Below, piece after piece: positions 6,374 to 12,942 of a DNA stretch of 64,000 bases. The notes below the pieces were generated by a model, which ran no database searches, was not told where the DNA came from, and worked only from the letters and a program-made list of their open reading frames with translations. The DNA comes from Rathayibacter oskolensis (GTDB lineage Bacteria > Actinomycetota > Actinomycetes > Actinomycetales > Microbacteriaceae), in assembly GCF_900177245.1 (NCBI RefSeq), contig NZ_FXBM01000002.1, positions 310,001 to 374,000 on the forward strand. Reading direction: 5' to 3'. Made by a program: the position numbers and the translations under genes. The stretch's first letter is position 1, and the number at the start of each line of letters is the position of its first letter.

Positions 6374-8098
6374 TCACCCCGCCAGCCGCGGGGTGCGCGG
6401 TGGCTCGACCCGGCGCCGGCCGGTCGCCTCGAAGGCGGCCGCGATCGCCAGCAGGCGCGAGTCGTCGTAGGCGGCTCCCGCGAAGGTCAGCCCCACCGGC
6501 ATCCCGATGTCGGCCGCGACGCCCATCGGCACGGTGACCGTCGGGATCCCGAGGTGCCGGATCGCCAGGTTGCCGTTCGCGACCCACACCCCGTTCCGCC
6601 AGCCCTCGTCGGCCGACGCCTCGTCGACGTCCATGTCGGCGGCTCCCACGTCGGCGACCGCCGGGAAGACGACGGCGTCCAGTCCGAGCCGCTCCAGCCA
6701 CTCCTCCAGGTCGATGCGCCGCGTCTCCTCCAGGCCCCGCAGGCCGTCGGCCAGCTCCGGGATGTCGGTGACGCCTCCGATCGGATGCCGCCGCACGTGC
6801 TCCGGGTAGTCGGCGATGTCGTCCTCGAACCCCGTGTACCGGTCGGGCAGCGCCCCCTCCGGAGCGGGGAAGATCCGGGCGCCGTCCACCTCGGCGAGAG
6901 TGCGCAGCCGAGGGTCGCCGTTCGCCGCGAGGAAGTCGTCCCACGCCCACGCCGCCAGGTCGACGATCTCGCGCCGGAGGTACTCGGCACTCACGAGCCC
7001 GCGCGTCGCGATCGTGGGCGCGCCCGGCCGGTCGCCCTCGTAGTTCGACACCACGGGGAAGTCGACCTCGACGACGACCGCGCCGGCCGCCTCGAGATCG
7101 CGGCGGGCCGCCTCCCACAGCACGAGCACCGACTCCCGGGGCGTGATCGCGCGACCGGTCGGGCCGCCGATGCCCGGGTCCGCCGCGGTCCCCGCCTCCT
7201 CGTCGGTGCCGAGATACAGGCGCGGCACGCCGAGCCGCAGGCCCGCGAGCGATGCGGAGGCGAGCGATCGGTACGAGGCGGGTCGCACCTCCGAGGCCCG
7301 CGGCAGGCGGACCCACGGCTGCACCCGCCAGAAGTCGCCGCGGCTCTCGGGGTCGTCGGCGACGAGCACGTCGAGCACGCTCAGCAGGTCGGCCATCGTG
7401 CGGGTGTGCGGGACGACGACGTCCATGGTCGGCACCAGCGGCCAGTTGCCGCGCACCGAGATGACGCCGCGCGAGGGCGTGTAGGCGCACAGGTTGCCGT
7501 TCGAGGCGGGGCCGCGCCCGCTCGACCAGGTCTCCTCGCCGAGACCGAAGGCGGCGAAGCTCGCGCTCGTCGCGGTGCCCGATCCGTTCGACGATCCGGA
7601 GGCGAACGGCGCGGCCAGGAACGCGGCGCTGTAGGGGCTCTCGGCGCGGCCGTAGAGCCCGCGTTGCATGCCGCCGTTGGCCATCGGCGGCATGTTGGTC
7701 AGCCCGAGGCAGATCGCGCCGGCCGCGCGCAGGCGCTCGATGCTGAACGCGTCGCGCTGGGCGACCAGATCGGCGAACGCGGGACTGCCGGCGGCGGCGG
7801 TCAGGCCGGCGACGAGGTAGCTGTCCTTCGCGGTGTAGGGGATGCCGTCGAGCGGGCCTCTCGCGGCGCCGGCAGCGCGACGGGCGTCGGAGGCGGCGGC
7901 CTCGTCGAGGGCGCGCGGGTTGCGGACCACGATCGAGTTCAGCGCCGTCGCCGTGCCGGGGGCGTCGTAGGCGTCGATCCGCGCGAGGTAGGCGCTCACC
8001 AGCCCGACCGCGGTCGCCTCCCCGCTCTCGAGCGCGCCGGTGAGGTCGTCGATCGACGCCTCGACGACGTCGATCGAGGCTGCGACGGCGTCGCTCAC
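6374..8098 (-). CDS. Amidase-signature family enzyme
   Basis: A 574-residue amidase with the Ser-cisSer-Lys triad region: GIPYTAKDSYL with Lys91, the Gly/Ser-rich SGSSNGSG loop (about 168-174) with the cis-Ser, and T-W-S-S-G-R with the probable nucleophile near Ser193. In most relatives the last motif reads G-G-S-I-R, so this is a divergent member. It would hydrolyse an amide or ureido bond in the cytoplasm; no signal peptide. The GTG start overlaps the agmatine deiminase stop in GTGA, so the two are co-translated. Acting on the N-carbamoylputrescine made by that enzyme is a plausible but unproven role; AguB of the nitrilase family normally does this. Confidence 0.85.
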   Translation of the reverse strand: MSDAVAASIDVVEASIDDLTGALESGEATAVGLVSAYLARIDAYDAPGTATALNSIVVRNPRALDEAAASDARRAAGAARGPLDGIPYTAKDSYLVAGLTAAAGSPAFADLVAQRDAFSIERLRAAGAICLGLTNMPPMANGGMQRGLYGRAESPYSAAFLAAPFASGSSNGSGTATSASFAAFGLGEETWSSGRGPASNGNLCAYTPSRGVISVRGNWPLVPTMDVVVPHTRTMADLLSVLDVLVADDPESRGDFWRVQPWVRLPRASEVRPASYRSLASASLAGLRLGVPRLYLGTDEEAGTAADPGIGGPTGRAITPRESVLVLWEAARRDLEAAGAVVVEVDFPVVSNYEGDRPGAPTIATRGLVSAEYLRREIVDLAAWAWDDFLAANGDPRLRTLAEVDGARIFPAPEGALPDRYTGFEDDIADYPEHVRRHPIGGVTDIPELADGLRGLEETRRIDLEEWLERLGLDAVVFPAVADVGAADMDVDEASADEGWRNGVWVANGNLAIRHLGIPTVTVPMGVAADIGMPVGLTFAGAAYDDSRLLAIAAAFEATGRRRVEPPRTPRLAG

Positions 8099-9129
8099 AG
8101 GGTCACGCTCGGCTGCTGCTGGGTGATGCAGTGCACGCCGCCGCCGCGCGCGAAGATCGGCCGGGCGTCGACTCCGACGACCCGGCGACCCGGGTAGGCG
8201 TCGGCCAGGATCTCCTGCGCCACCGCGTCGGCGCGCGGCTCGCCGAACGAGCAGGCGATGACGCCGCCGTCGACGACGAGGTGGTTGAGGTAGCTCCAGT
8301 CGACGAACCCGTCGGCGTCTTTCAGAGTGTCGGGCGCCGGGACGTCGACGATCTCGAACAGGCGCCCCGCGGCGTCGGTCTGCGCCTCGAGCTCGGCGCG
8401 AATCCCCCGCATCACCGCGTGGTCGGGGTGCGCGGGGTCGTCCTGCCGGTGCAGGAGGAGGCGGCCGGGTGAGGGGATCGTCGCGACGATGTCGACGTGG
8501 CCGTTCGTGCCGAAGTCGTCGTAGTCGCGGGTGAGCCCGCGGGGGAGCCAGACCGCGTGCGTCGCGCCGATCGTCCGCTCCAGCTCGGCCTCGACGCGGG
8601 CGCGGTCGAGGTAGGGGTTCCGCCGCGGATCCAGCTGCACCGTCTCGGTGACCAGGACGGTGCCCTCGCCGTCGACGTGGATGCCTCCGCCCTCGTTGAC
8701 CATCGTCGAGCTGACGAGCTCGCTGCCGGCGACACCGCTCGCGAAGCGCGCGATCTCGGCCGACTTGCGCCACTCGGACCAGCCCGGGTCACCCCAGCCG
8801 TTGAAGGTCCAGTCGACGGCGCCGAGCACGCCGGGCCGCTCGTCGTCGACGACGAAGGTGGGCCCGAAGTCGCGCATCCAGAACTCGTCGACGGGAGTCT
8901 CGAGCAGCTCTGCTCCCTCGCCCAGCATCCGCCGCGCCCGCGCTCTCTCCGACGGGTCGACGACCATCGCGACCGGCTCGAACTCGGCCACGGCGAGGGC
9001 GACGGCGCTCCAGGCGGCGTAGCACTCGTCGCGCTCGGCGGCGGTGGCGCCGAGGGAGGGGCCGGCGACCGGGAACGTCATCCAGGTGCGGTCGTGCGGA
9101 GCGGTCTCCGCGGGCATGCGCCAGGTCAT
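8095..9129 (-). CDS. aguA: Agmatine deiminase (peptidyl-arginine-deiminase-like family)
   Basis: A 344-residue protein of the PAD_porph/AguA family that converts agmatine to N-carbamoylputrescine and ammonia. Visible features are FWMRDFGP near the start of the catalytic fan, the N-G-H-V-D active-site segment, and GGGVHCITQQ with the nucleophile Cys334 near the C-terminus. The start MTWRMPAETA is chosen because GAGG lies at a normal distance before it; the upstream ATG (9142-9144) has no such site. It is first in a two-gene unit with an amidase. Related family members deiminate other guanidino compounds, so the substrate is probable rather than certain. Confidence 0.88.
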   Translation of the reverse strand: MTWRMPAETAPHDRTWMTFPVAGPSLGATAAERDECYAAWSAVALAVAEFEPVAMVVDPSERARARRMLGEGAELLETPVDEFWMRDFGPTFVVDDERPGVLGAVDWTFNGWGDPGWSEWRKSAEIARFASGVAGSELVSSTMVNEGGGIHVDGEGTVLVTETVQLDPRRNPYLDRARVEAELERTIGATHAVWLPRGLTRDYDDFGTNGHVDIVATIPSPGRLLLHRQDDPAHPDHAVMRGIRAELEAQTDAAGRLFEIVDVPAPDTLKDADGFVDWSYLNHLVVDGGVIACSFGEPRADAVAQEILADAYPGRRVVGVDARPIFARGGGVHCITQQQPSVTL

Positions 9130-9266
9130 GGCCACCGTCCTCATCGTGTCGTGGTGTCGTGTCGTGTTCTGTCGTGTCGGGTCGTGTTAGGAGGTGAGTG
9201 GGGGTGGGTCGGGGATGTGGGCCGATTATCCCGTGGTGGGAGGCGCGCGCGCGTCGTCGACGGCAG

Positions 9267-9361
9267 TGCGATCTGCAGGCGGTGGTGCCGTCTGCAGGCG
9301 CCCGTGCGGTGTGCAGGTGCCCGTGCGGTGTGCAGGTGCCTGTGCGGTGTGCAGGTGATCC
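9267..9361 (+). repeat. Tandem array of five 19-base units (left array)
   Basis: Five consecutive units, each 19 bases, begin TGCGATCTGCAGGCGGTGG and drift to TGCGGTGTGCAGGTGCCCG. Every unit keeps a T-G-C-[GC]-[GA]-T-[CG]-T-G-C-A-G-G core. There are no spacers, so it is not a CRISPR. The first unit is the reverse complement of the core of the array at 9411-9489. Confidence 0.8.
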
Positions 9362-9410
9362 GAGCGACGATCCGCGTTCTTGCTCGCAGGATCGAGCGCG
9401 ATCGCGGAAT

Positions 9411-9489
9411 CGCCTGCAGATCGCACCGTCTCCTGCAGATCGCACCGCCTCCTGCAGATCGCATCTGCATCTCCTGCAGATCGCACCCG
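9411..9489 (-). repeat. Tandem array of four units, inverted relative to the left array
   Basis: Units of 19, 19, 22 and 19 bases share CTCCTGCAGATCGCACC; the third contains a 3-base insertion and partial duplication (GCATCTGCAT). CCTGCAGATCGCA is the exact reverse complement of TGCGATCTGCAGG in the left array, so the two arrays could pair into a long hairpin around a 49-base centre. Confidence 0.8.
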
Positions 9490-9535
9490 TTCGAGGCAGG
9501 ACGACACGCCCTCCCTCGGGACGCGCCCGTCGCGG

Positions 9536-9641
9536 GATCGATCCGTCGCGAACGGCCCTTGTAAGTCGGCTCAGACGGGCCGTTCGTGACCGATCGAACC
9601 GGGCGAGTCGGCGCGGACGGGCCGTTCGCGACGGATCGATC
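9536..9641. repeat. Perfect 23-base inverted repeat with an extra internal copy
   Basis: Positions 9536-9558 and 9619-9641 are exact reverse complements (arms GATCGATCCGTCGCG... and its mate). A third, slightly diverged copy, GGGCCGTTCGTGACCGATCGA, lies at 9577-9597 in the same orientation as the right arm. A related hairpin occurs downstream of the ABC operon at 23761-23820. Placed just after the tetR stop, it may terminate transcription. Confidence 0.75.
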
Positions 9642-9664: not shown

Positions 9665-10243
9665 CTACGCGGCGGGGGGCGCCGCGCGGTGCGGCGTCAG
9701 CACGGCGCGGGCCGACTCGAGCAGGACGCGCGCCAGGACGTCGCGGTCGGCCGAGCGGAGCGAGGGGTCCATGCCGGCGATCATGAGGCCGCCGCCCGCG
9801 ACCGCGAGCGCGATGCGCGCCTCCGGAGTCGGGTCGGCCCCGATCAGGTGCCGGTTGATGCCCGTGGTCGCCTCGACGAAGGCCGGGTCGCGCCAGAGCA
9901 GCTGCACGACCGCCGGGTCGCGCTGGATGGCGGCCGCGAACTCCCGGTGCTCGACCGCGAGCCCGACCAGCCCCTCGAGCGTGACGTCGAACGCGCGTGC
10001 GGGAGGGGCCGCGTCGGCCTCGCGCACGAGCTCGGCCATGCGCGCGAAGGCGGGCTCGACGACCGCGAGCACGATCTCGTCCTTCGACGCGAACTGGTGG
10101 TAGACGGCCGCCTTCGTCACCCCGAGCTCGTCAGCGATGAGCTGCAGCGAGGTCCCGTTGACCCCGCGCTCGCCGAACAGGCGGAGTGCCGTCTGCAGGA
10201 GGCGGGCCCGTGATTCGCCGCGCTTGCCGACCGGTCGGGCCAT
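9665..10243 (-). CDS. TetR-family transcriptional repressor
   Basis: A 192-residue regulator with the N-terminal helix-turn-helix ARLLQTALRLFGERGVNGTS then L-Q-L-I-A-D-E-L-G-V-T-K-A-A-V-Y-H-Q-F-A-S-K-D-E (about 12-58) and a helical ligand-binding domain. The ATG at 10241-10243 follows GAGGAGG, which rules against the longer upstream frame. It is divergent from the dehydrogenase operon and the gap carries a 24-base perfect palindrome overlying the predicted promoter, so it very probably represses both sides. The ligand is unknown. Confidence 0.92.
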   Translation of the reverse strand: MARPVGKRGESRARLLQTALRLFGERGVNGTSLQLIADELGVTKAAVYHQFASKDEIVLAVVEPAFARMAELVREADAAPPARAFDVTLEGLVGLAVEHREFAAAIQRDPAVVQLLWRDPAFVEATTGINRHLIGADPTPEARIALAVAGGGLMIAGMDPSLRSADRDVLARVLLESARAVLTPHRAAPPAA

Positions 10244-10357: not shown

Positions 10358-11383
10358 ATGAAGCTCTCGATGGTCACGGCCCCGGGAACGACGACGACGG
10401 TCGAGGTCGACACCCCGACTCCTGGCCCGGCCGACGTGCTGGTGCGGGTGCGCGCGTGCGGCATCTGCGGATCGGACGCGCTGTACATCGCGCTCGGCGG
10501 ACTGCCCGGGATCGAGGGGCGCACGCCGCTCGGCCACGAGCCCGCCGGTGAGGTGGTGGCGGTCGGAGCCGACGTCGAGGGCGTGCCGGTCGGCGCCCGC
10601 GTCGTCGTGAACCCGATGGCGGCGCCCACCGGCATCATCGGCTCGGGCGGCACGACCGGAGGCATGGCCGAGTTCCTCCTGATCGAGAACGCGGTGCTCG
10701 GGCGGAGCCTGCAGATCGTGCCCGACCACGTCCCCTTCGAGGTCGCGGCGCTCAACGAGCCGATGGCCGTCGCGCGCCACGCCGTCAACCGCACGGCGCC
10801 GAAGCCGGGCGACGCGGTCGTCGTCTTCGGAGCCGGCCCGATCGGCCTCGGCGCGGTGCTCGCCTACCGCGCGCTCGGCGCCGGCCACATCACGGTCGTC
10901 GACGTGATCCCCTCCCGCCTCGAGAAGGCGCTGAGGGTCGGGGCCGACGCGGTCGTCGACTCCTCGCGCGAGGACGTCGTCGAGCGCCTGATCGAGCTAC
11001 AGGGCGAGGCGCCCGCCCGCCGCGGGCAGCGCAAGCCCGCGACCGACGTGTTCCTCGACGCCGCCGGCGCACCCGTCGTGGTGCGGACGATCCTCGGCGC
11101 GGCCAAGCACGGCGCGACCCTCGGGATCGTGGCGGTGCACAAGAAGCCGGTCGAGGTCGACTTCGGCGCGATCCTCGGCTCCGAGCTGACCATCGTGCTC
11201 TCGATGGGCTACCCGTCCGAGATCTTCGAGGTCACGGAGGATCTCGTCGCGAACTGGGAGAAGTACGCGGTGATCGTGAGCGACGTCGTCGACTTCTCCG
11301 AGGTCGACCAGGCCTTCGTCACCGCCTCGACTCCGGGCGCCGCCGACAAGGTCGTCGTCACGTTCGGGAGCGACGCCAGATGA
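10358..11383 (+). CDS. Zinc-dependent medium-chain alcohol dehydrogenase
   Basis: A 341-residue MDR-family oxidoreductase. Catalytic zinc residues are visible as CGICGSD (34-40, Cys37) and GHE (59-61); GAGPIG (158-163) starts the Rossmann fold. The four-Cys structural zinc loop is missing: the region near 86-100 is N-P-M-A-A-P-T-G-I-I-G-S-G-G, so it is of the non-structural-zinc type. It oxidises a secondary alcohol or polyol with NAD(P). The ATG has an AGGAGG-like site upstream, and the stop overlaps the next gene's ATG (ATGA). First gene of a TetR-controlled three-gene operon. Confidence 0.88.
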   Translation: MKLSMVTAPGTTTTVEVDTPTPGPADVLVRVRACGICGSDALYIALGGLPGIEGRTPLGHEPAGEVVAVGADVEGVPVGARVVVNPMAAPTGIIGSGGTTGGMAEFLLIENAVLGRSLQIVPDHVPFEVAALNEPMAVARHAVNRTAPKPGDAVVVFGAGPIGLGAVLAYRALGAGHITVVDVIPSRLEKALRVGADAVVDSSREDVVERLIELQGEAPARRGQRKPATDVFLDAAGAPVVVRTILGAAKHGATLGIVAVHKKPVEVDFGAILGSELTIVLSMGYPSEIFEVTEDLVANWEKYAVIVSDVVDFSEVDQAFVTASTPGAADKVVVTFGSDAR

Positions 11384-11961: not shown

Positions 11962-12942
11962 GTGCTCACTTCGAAGAACACCGTCCAGCAGTGGCTCGAC
12001 GACGCCGTCGGCGGCCCGATCCTCCGCGGGATCCTCGCCCAGGGCGGCAGGTCGGCCGACGAGCTGGCGCCCGCGGCGGGCCTCAGCCTGCAGACCCTCG
12101 TCGAGCTCGGCGGCGGCCGGTTCCCGCAGGAGCTCGTCGACACGATCGTGCGGCAGGCGAACGGCGGGGTGATCCCGGAGGAGGAGCCGGAGCCGGCGGC
12201 CCAGGCCCGCTTCTCCGGTCGCACCGTCGTCGTCACCGGCGCGGGTTCCGGGATCGGCCGGGCGACCGCCCGACGGCTCGTGCGCGAGGGCGCGCGGGTG
12301 ATCGCCGTCGACGTGGTGCCGACGGGCATCGACGAGCTGGCCGCCGCCTCCCCCGAGGGGTCGGTCGTGACCGTCACCGCCGACATCACCTCGCCCGACG
12401 GAGTCGCCGCGATCGTCTCCGCCGCGGGCGAGCGGATCGACGGTCTCGCGAACATCGCCGGGATCATGGACGGCATGGTCCCGCTGCACGAGGTCGAGGA
12501 CGCGCTCTGGCGGCGCGTGTTCTCGGTCAACGTCGACGGCACGTTCGCGCTGAGCCGCGCGGTGCTGCCAGCGATGCTGGCGCAGGGGCGCGGCTCCATC
12601 GTCAACATCGCCTCGGAGGCGTCGCTGCGCGGCAACGCGGCCGGCACCGCCTACACGGCCTCGAAGCACGCGGTGGTGGGCATCACGAAGTCGGCGGCGT
12701 TCCTCTACGGACCCTCCGGGATCCGCACGAACGCGGTCGCTCCGGGGCCGACGGCCACGGCGATCGAGGGCACGATGGCGTCGGAGTTCGGCCGCGAGCG
12801 CCTGTCGCCGTTCTTCGCCTTCCTCCCGCCGGTGGTGTCGGCCGACACGATGGCGGCGTCGATCACCTGGCTGCTGAGCGACGACTCCGCCAACGTGAAC
12901 GGGATCGTGCTCGCCTCGGACGGCGGATGGTCGGTGCAGTAG
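11962..12942 (+). CDS. SDR-family oxidoreductase with an N-terminal extension
   Basis: A 326-residue protein whose C-terminal 240 residues are a classical short-chain dehydrogenase: TGAGSGIG cofactor loop (92-99), N-I-A-G (164-167), and a Ser218-Tyr231-Lys235 triad (NIASEAS, YTASK). About 84 residues precede the fold: a helical segment (W-L-D-D-A-V-G-G-P-I-L-R-G-I-L) and an Ala/Glu/Pro linker that I cannot assign. The GTG start at 11962 has GGAG upstream and keeps this extension in frame from the start. It is third in the TetR-controlled operon and probably acts on the same compound class as the dehydrogenase. Confidence 0.87.
   Translation: MLTSKNTVQQWLDDAVGGPILRGILAQGGRSADELAPAAGLSLQTLVELGGGRFPQELVDTIVRQANGGVIPEEEPEPAAQARFSGRTVVVTGAGSGIGRATARRLVREGARVIAVDVVPTGIDELAAASPEGSVVTVTADITSPDGVAAIVSAAGERIDGLANIAGIMDGMVPLHEVEDALWRRVFSVNVDGTFALSRAVLPAMLAQGRGSIVNIASEASLRGNAAGTAYTASKHAVVGITKSAAFLYGPSGIRTNAVAPGPTATAIEGTMASEFGRERLSPFFAFLPPVVSADTMAASITWLLSDDSANVNGIVLASDGGWSVQ

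Follow-up and report, generated by a model that had tools for sequence, protein, structure and literature searches.

What are the two short tandem arrays that face each other between a deiminase gene and a tetR gene in this DNA, and what might read them? The window, by which we mean the whole 64,000-nucleotide stretch of DNA that was analysed, was taken as Rathayibacter because its deiminase is 92-93% identical to the homologues of Rathayibacter sp. VKM Ac-2754 and Leaf185. The features concerned are the following.

Positions 9267 to 9361, minus strand: left array of five 19-bp units, with 13-bp cores at 9267, 9286, 9305, 9324 and 9343.
Positions 9413 to 9489, plus strand: right array of four units, with 13-bp cores at 9413, 9432, 9451 and 9473.
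Positions 9343 to 9425, no strand: minimal 83-bp element, made of the innermost left unit, a 57-nt centre and the innermost right unit, with a start-to-start distance of 70.
Positions 9356 to 9412, no strand: the 57-nt centre between the arms, nearly fixed in length and weakly conserved in sequence.
Positions 8095 to 9144, minus strand: agmatine/peptidylarginine deiminase gene (PF04371, E 1.8e-99), with its start towards the array.
Positions 9665 to 10243, minus strand: TetR-family regulator gene (PF00440, E 5e-17; ORF call), with its end adjoining the array.

The array thus lies between the end of tetR and the start of the deiminase gene, both on the minus strand, and these two genes are context, outside the system. 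An earlier note on this DNA had described two facing tandem arrays of units of about 19 bp, five on the left and four on the right, at 9267-9489. This description is correct, and both arrays are also reported by Tandem Repeats Finder. Read directly from the sequence, the cores advance by 19 throughout on the left and by 19, 19 and 22 on the right, and the gaps between 13-mer units within the arrays are of 6 nt; the unit words, named for the window's strain, are TGCGATCTGCAGG and TGCGGTGTGCAGG. The exact reverse-complement match holds for the left unit at 9267 against all four right units, but the other four left units are 2 bases off. With up to 3 mismatches, the unit matches the window 45 times against 29.65 expected, a count reached in 0 of 100 shuffles. 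A CRISPR array was rejected, given the 6-nt gaps between units and the inverted arms, in place of unique spacers of constant length.

Other features were seen close by. Between the array and the end of tetR, at 9536-9641, lies a second and different imperfect palindrome, with arms of 51 nt that are 75% complementary, around CGAACGGCCC; similar GGGCCC-type hairpins by gene ends in loci L090 and L110 suggest that it is a terminator-like repeat. A run of TCGTG pentamers occupies 9144-9187, immediately upstream of the deiminase start. ARAGORN calls a tRNA-Pro (CGG) on the minus strand at 10789-10873, within and antisense to a dehydrogenase-like ORF, which is probably a false positive.

The array belongs to a dispersed family. 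We surveyed relatives of the window's species, namely 15 genomes of a Rathayibacter set (the genus set) and 398 genomes of the family; where needed, genomes and loci are cited by our G and L numbers. The exact 13-mer is present in 10 of the 15 genus-set genomes, with 42 copies in Leaf185 (G002) and 18 in G001, against 0 for the reversed-pattern control. A sequence model of 34 elements, read at E up to 0.01 and able to match a single place on both strands, gives 1 to 74 matches in each of the 15 genus-set genomes and in G374. Since the sole match in G015 sits in apparent coding sequence and looks like chance, we count dispersed elements in 14 of the 15. A paired pattern that admitted spacings of 68-72 only was found in 6 of the 398 family genomes. 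Finally, 95 related-locus regions (441,193 bases), which had been selected for holding elements, contain 475 units; when reversed, that sequence gives 2. The earlier note had proposed a genome-wide search and had named uniqueness to one assembly, or a match to a catalogued repeat, as reasons to abandon the element; as far as searched, it is neither. A phage or plasmid origin was rejected, as two exact patterns had 0 matches in viral contigs and a blastn search with 9255-9500 hit none of 72,556 plasmid and 50,697 phage records.

Beyond these genomes, sequence model R1 gave 83 matches up to E 10 in 78 loci of other relatives (best 2e-4), and of the ten inspected none was convincing; inverted tandem 10-mers in the same 78 loci have a period of 19 in 4 cases and each other period from 12 to 31 in 0-2. 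A Microbacterium array of CCGACATCCGG was considered as a parallel case and discarded, as it occurs at only one place among 12 loci read.

The elements keep a ruler-like geometry. In a survey of 108 distinct elements that allowed innermost-unit spacings of 66-74, the spacing was 70 (64 elements), 71 (39), 72 (4) or 69 (1), that is, 70-71 bp in 103 of 108 and nothing outside 69-72. In the 441,193 bases of element-bearing loci, neighbouring units on the same strand are 19 apart in 176 of 230 cases. Among 116 left-to-right neighbours the distance is 70 or 71 in 101, and in 14 of the remaining 15 it is 70/71 plus a multiple of 19. Each arm carries 1 to 9 tandem units, 31 of 130 elements having a single unit per arm in an analysis that admitted spacings of 69-72 only, and whole elements are sometimes tandemly repeated.

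Unit sequence and spacing are genome-specific. The unit consensus is NNCGATCTGCAGG, and its second base is G in G001, G002, G006 and G010, G or A in G005 and G008, T or C in G009, G011 and G013, and mixed in G007. Spacing is 71 in 15 of 18 G005 elements and 72 in 4 of 4 G374 elements, 72 being the upper edge of the searched pattern. In G012 the layout is unchanged, and the unit is GGAAATGCAGGAGATC at all 5 of the 5 loci read. Elements occupy orthologous places in several species (76 rows compared, repeats of the same pair included). At such places most units follow their own genome's version; the left units of L208 and L143 are among those that do not. Unit frequencies in early element sets, the 45-element pairing set used below among them, are biased through choice by exact 13-mer; the 108-element set, a 103-element set and the flank-fit test described below are less so. 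Another dispersed palindromic repeat, roughly TGCTGGTCGAGTAGCCCC...GGGGCGTATCGAGACCC, was observed in L002 (~9860-9900), in L001 (~30-75) and upstream of dapA in L344/L345, and takes several of the same intergenic sites as array elements in relatives.

A DNA-binding protein gene that co-occurs with the arrays, which the earlier note had suggested looking for, has a strong candidate in a dapA-linked nuclease with a predicted winged helix. In G010, the gene for a DUF559/MTES_1575 protein adjoins dapA and lies between two elements ~1 kb apart, an arrangement shared by G005, G008 and G009; the G010 copy contains an in-frame stop. The nuclease adjoins dapA in 9 of the 15 genus-set genomes, and each of these nine copies stands between two elements. 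A protein search of 21 genomes found orthologs of at least 65% identity in G005, G006, G007, G008, G009, G010 and G014, orthologs at 42-44% in G012 and G015, and weaker family members nearly everywhere (20 of 21 genomes at E 1e-8). In the 64-kb window itself, tblastn detected no member of the family at E 1e-5.

The protein, of ~277 aa, joins an N-terminal AbiEi-type winged helix to a C-terminal DUF559/Vsr-like nuclease domain. The N-terminal domain matches PF13338 and the PADLOC AbiEi models; among 10 proteins, AbiEi_4 scores above its curated cut-off in 6, below it in 3 and is not found in 1. DUF559 (PF04480) is above the cut-off in 10 of 10, and MTES_1575 is detected in 9 of 10, always below. 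The residues invariant in 23 aligned proteins include E184, D210, E220, H227 and D232. A PDB profile search returned 3hrl ('Endonuclease-Like Protein', E 2.7e-10) and 3r3p ('Mobile intron protein', E 2.4e-4), the latter presumably I-Bth0305I. By profile, the catalytic domain is related to the EDxHD type, and the invariant acidic and His residues may correspond to those of that type; EDxHD enzymes are Vsr-like. Our literature search, with subscription journals mostly outside its coverage, yielded no published description of a partnership between this nuclease and the element and no match for the unit string or for DUF559 together with inverted repeats; judged by title, none of the papers retrieved for DUF559 concerns repeats. 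The repeat is not mentioned in the available portions of the R. toxicus genome paper (PMC5552033) or of the RepRanger paper (PMC12306157).

The units that bracket the gene mostly match those dispersed in the same genome. They read GGTTTGCAGG in G007 and GGAAATGCAGGGT in G015, where no dispersed copy was identified, and in G012 the flanking word is identical to the dispersed one. In 5 of 7 genomes tested, the gene-flanking units fit their own genome's dispersed units best; the exceptions are G005, which fits its relative G008 better, and G006, which fits G007 better by 0.3 bits. Against a role for the nuclease, the gene flanks of G374 carry a GAAATGCAGGA-type unit, versus TGCGATCTGCAGG in four pattern-found elements, and G011, in which the search found no family member at E 1e-8, still yields 31 element-model matches. 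In the same direction, G001 and G002, which are close relatives of the window's species, as well as G011, G013, G016 and G017, contain elements and no ortholog of at least 65% identity. Since these six genomes keep elements without a close ortholog, either the gene is dispensable for their short-term retention or another reader exists. In the 260-330 nt that precede the dapA start, these gene-less genomes show no element (G001, G002, G016), a different repeat (G011, G013) or a decayed element (G017).

The bracketing extends to the wider family, where homologs at E 1e-40 occur in 53 of 398 genomes. The 23 new family loci examined were the best-scoring ones, and 14 of these further loci also include the dapA start. 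Of 33 family members, 25 have one and the same 9-mer as an inverted pair of equal spacing in the two flanks, compared with 2 of 150 random site pairs. Among the eight members that miss it, five do have elements or inverted pairs to either side of the gene by other analyses (L312, L315 and L356; L316 and L319 by reading). Distant paralogs are positive in this test as well, 8 of 20 of them, or 7 of 19 without L329, an artefact of a short contig on which the flanks overlap the gene. A 10-mer test, from which L329 was left out and which had no random control, was positive in 35 of 52 cases, 32 of them with matching spacing; the spacings of L321, L333 and L363 differ by 11-29. The unit words vary widely (GAAATGCAGG, TTATGCAGGA, AATCAAGGAG, CAAATCACGG, GCAACCGAGG and others), and unit similarity correlates with protein identity, with r of 0.50 for the spacing-matched 10-mer loci (n 32), 0.48 when Rathayibacter orthologs are excluded (n 26) and 0.42 (n 25), at 0 of 5000 permutations each. 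As the flanks are linked to the gene, this correlation is partly expected from common descent; dispersed copies that follow the same unit are the stronger sign.

Related observations were made outside the main set. In G008, G005 and G016 (L336, L337 and L338), a distant nuclease paralog has its own inverted word of the GCAACCGAGG type on both flanks, at a spacing of 52-58 by word, which suggests that these genomes contain a further, independent enzyme/repeat pair. Agromyces italicus (G409) holds 20 copies of CGGGTTTACAGG units (control 0). In L223-L233 of this genome and in L222 of A. humatus (G410), CGGGTTTACAGG units follow one another every 19 bp, most outer pairs being 69-70 apart, and at C11:78388-78624 of G409 a partial nuclease-family member is enclosed by two CGGGTTTACAGG elements. 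Inverted tandem intergenic repeats in Leifsonia and Microbacterium, ACGAATGTCG (L033, ~12769-12940), GGGCACGTCG with a period of 23 (L040, ~6170) and GCCGACACGCC (L036, ~7400), may belong to further enzyme/repeat pairs.

We consider it probable that the array is one dispersed copy of the recognition element of this two-domain AbiEi-winged-helix/DUF559 nuclease. The earlier note had offered a mobile repeat, a protein-binding array and a structured RNA as possible identities, and a protein-binding array is the best supported of the three, with binding inferred. Each winged helix would bind one 13-bp unit on duplex DNA, and a nuclease dimer would span the inverted pair at 70-71 bp; we propose that the reach of the dimer across the pair fixes the spacing and leaves the centre sequence free. 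Extra tandem units would be added binding sites, and cutting and repair at the element could drive the fast gain and loss of units and sometimes copy the element elsewhere. A broader proposal, which we put forward tentatively and with less confidence than the first, is that Microbacteriaceae contain a nuclease-repeat system which propagates itself and arose independently as a counterpart of RAYT/REPIN. The dapA-linked nuclease, with its AbiEi winged helix and EDxHD-like domain, would act as a dimer on inverted units 70 bp apart and cut the dispersed elements, repair would drive the turnover of their units, their homogenisation and their spread, and in each genome enzyme and repeat would mutually rewrite their specificity. 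If this is true, poorly characterised AbiEi/DUF559 proteins would gain a function and a natural substrate, and the riddle posed by RAYT/REPIN, a vertically inherited enzyme accompanied by dispersed repeats, would have a second and unrelated answer. Protein-DNA co-evolution could then be tested directly on the many natural enzyme/site pairs with differing unit words, and genome engineers may find long dimeric sites of varied specificity of interest.

The alternative that survives best, which we judge unlikely, is that the arrays are sites of a chromosomal architectural or transcription-boundary protein near gene 3' ends, and that the nuclease gene merely carries them or is regulated by them. 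Genomic context agrees with it. With genes called by a home-made GC3 caller, under which one place may class differently between fetches (L089/L127), element-bearing gaps are convergent, tandem or divergent in 18, 24 and 5 cases, versus 55, 177 and 99 for element-free gaps of 100 bp or more. Convergent gaps are thus enriched (odds ratio 3.1, p 0.0012) and divergent ones depleted (0.28, p 0.005), and 17 of the 24 tandem-gap elements lie closer to the upstream stop. The recurrence of orthologous sites over the genus and the persistence of elements in genomes without a close ortholog also fit a boundary protein. However, a 3'-end bias is expected of any promoter-avoiding repeat, and a boundary protein leaves unexplained why the same nuclease family sits between elements despite their differing unit words.

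A REPIN/RAYT family of the known type, or another non-autonomous transposon family, seems improbable to us. Such repeats, too, consist of an inverted pair around a spacer that is constant in length and poorly conserved in sequence, 71 bp long in GI REPINs in the accessible part of PMC3116915, and an enzyme gene flanked by its repeats recalls RAYTs as presented in the portion available of PMC2817692. Presence and absence also differ between close relatives. A 360-kb block of G002, compared with G001 (about 90%), contains 8 elements at 7 loci. In G001, 2 of these loci have an element too, 1 retains a single unit and 4 have none; G001 holds one extra weak candidate without a G002 counterpart. The site of the window's own array has no element in G002 and G010. 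The elements may still be a mobile repeat, as the earlier note suggested: 12 of 13 G008 loci match a fetched G005 locus (flanks ~93-98% identical), but only 2 of 7 loci are shared by G002 and G001, and five aligned G001/G002 sites show no clear target duplication. This last result, together with a best identity of ~81% between non-orthologous elements at separate places, speaks against a transposon or MITE. A RAYT was rejected as the partner enzyme, as none of 18 genomes has a match to its family, PF01797, which is present in 5 of 14 control genomes. Moreover, the unit consensus has neither a GTAG-type head nor a hairpin palindrome, and the arms do not covary within genomes (103 elements).

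Less probable still is a structured RNA, a long hairpin terminator or a cruciform. The window element folds strongly, at -142 kcal/mol with z -8.4 as RNA (-6.8 for the other strand) and -7.0 as DNA, although good folding is inherent in any inverted array; in addition, the elements are located at 3' ends, and 3 of 32 position pairs in 45 elements give a nominal, uncorrected pairing signal (0.007, 0.016 and 0.035). Against this, the arms evolve in the manner of duplex sites. Within genomes, none of the 13 unit positions shows significantly more agreement between arms than shuffles do (103 elements); across genomes, positions 2 and 8 do agree above shuffles, which reflects genome-specific units since the agreement is absent within genomes. 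The two arms show no correlation in unit number (rho -0.07, p 0.44, 130 elements), one element having for instance 9 versus 1. In tandem gaps the core points along transcription as often as against it (31:31), and the 34 centres analysed have no more folding than shuffled sequence (z -0.16 +- 0.15). The consensus fold pairs conserved unit columns only, and a search of Rfam returned two miRNA-like matches, both far below threshold. From the missing covariation, the uncorrelated arms, the lack of strand bias and the unfolded centres, it follows that the unit is probably read as duplex DNA and not as a hairpin or RNA. The large cruciform proposed earlier is therefore not supported despite the strength of the fold, and the even orientation makes a structured RNA unlikely. 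An ordinary, function-free minisatellite might be suggested by the unit numbers, which differ between G008 and G005 at roughly six of the ten loci that were compared by eye, but is scarcely credible given the nearly fixed inverted spacing (70/71 in 103 of 108 elements), the genome-wide dispersal, the genome-specific unit found also at orthologous sites and the link to one gene family.

The recognition element of a two-domain nuclease, our preferred reading, has parts in common with several known systems. The protein shares with the Type IV AbiEi antitoxin family its N-terminal winged-helix domain (PF13338, PADLOC AbiEi models), whereas a nuclease-like domain replaces the antitoxin domain at its C-terminus. 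Its catalytic domain is related by profile (3r3p) to the EDxHD homing endonucleases. One of these, I-Bth0305I, dimerises on a target of nearly 60 bp according to the consulted part of PMC3943268, which resembles an inverted pair across 57 nt. In contrast to such enzymes, there is here no sign of an intron or intein context, the winged helix is of AbiEi type, and many dispersed target-like elements take the place of one homing site and bracket the gene as well. The BIME/REP sequences of enterobacteria are also intergenic, repeated inverted modules, at times several in a row (PMC2817692, in the part available), but the present units are not hairpin palindromes and the arms are head-to-tail arrays. 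The arrangement also resembles RAYT/REPIN. In the accessible parts of PMC2817692 and PMC3116915, a dispersed intergenic repeat forms an inverted pair ~70 bp apart with a spacer of fixed length, the enzyme gene is flanked on both sides by its repeat, as it is here in 9 of 9 dapA-locus copies with a different enzyme, and co-evolution of enzyme and repeat is proposed. The differences lie in the enzyme, an AbiEi/DUF559 nuclease where the tyrosine transposase is absent from 18 genomes, and in the repeat, whose 13-mer units stand in tandem arrays without a hairpin and show no compensatory changes within genomes. By analogy, then, our best reading is that the arrangement would work like RAYT/REPIN while being built from an unrelated enzyme.
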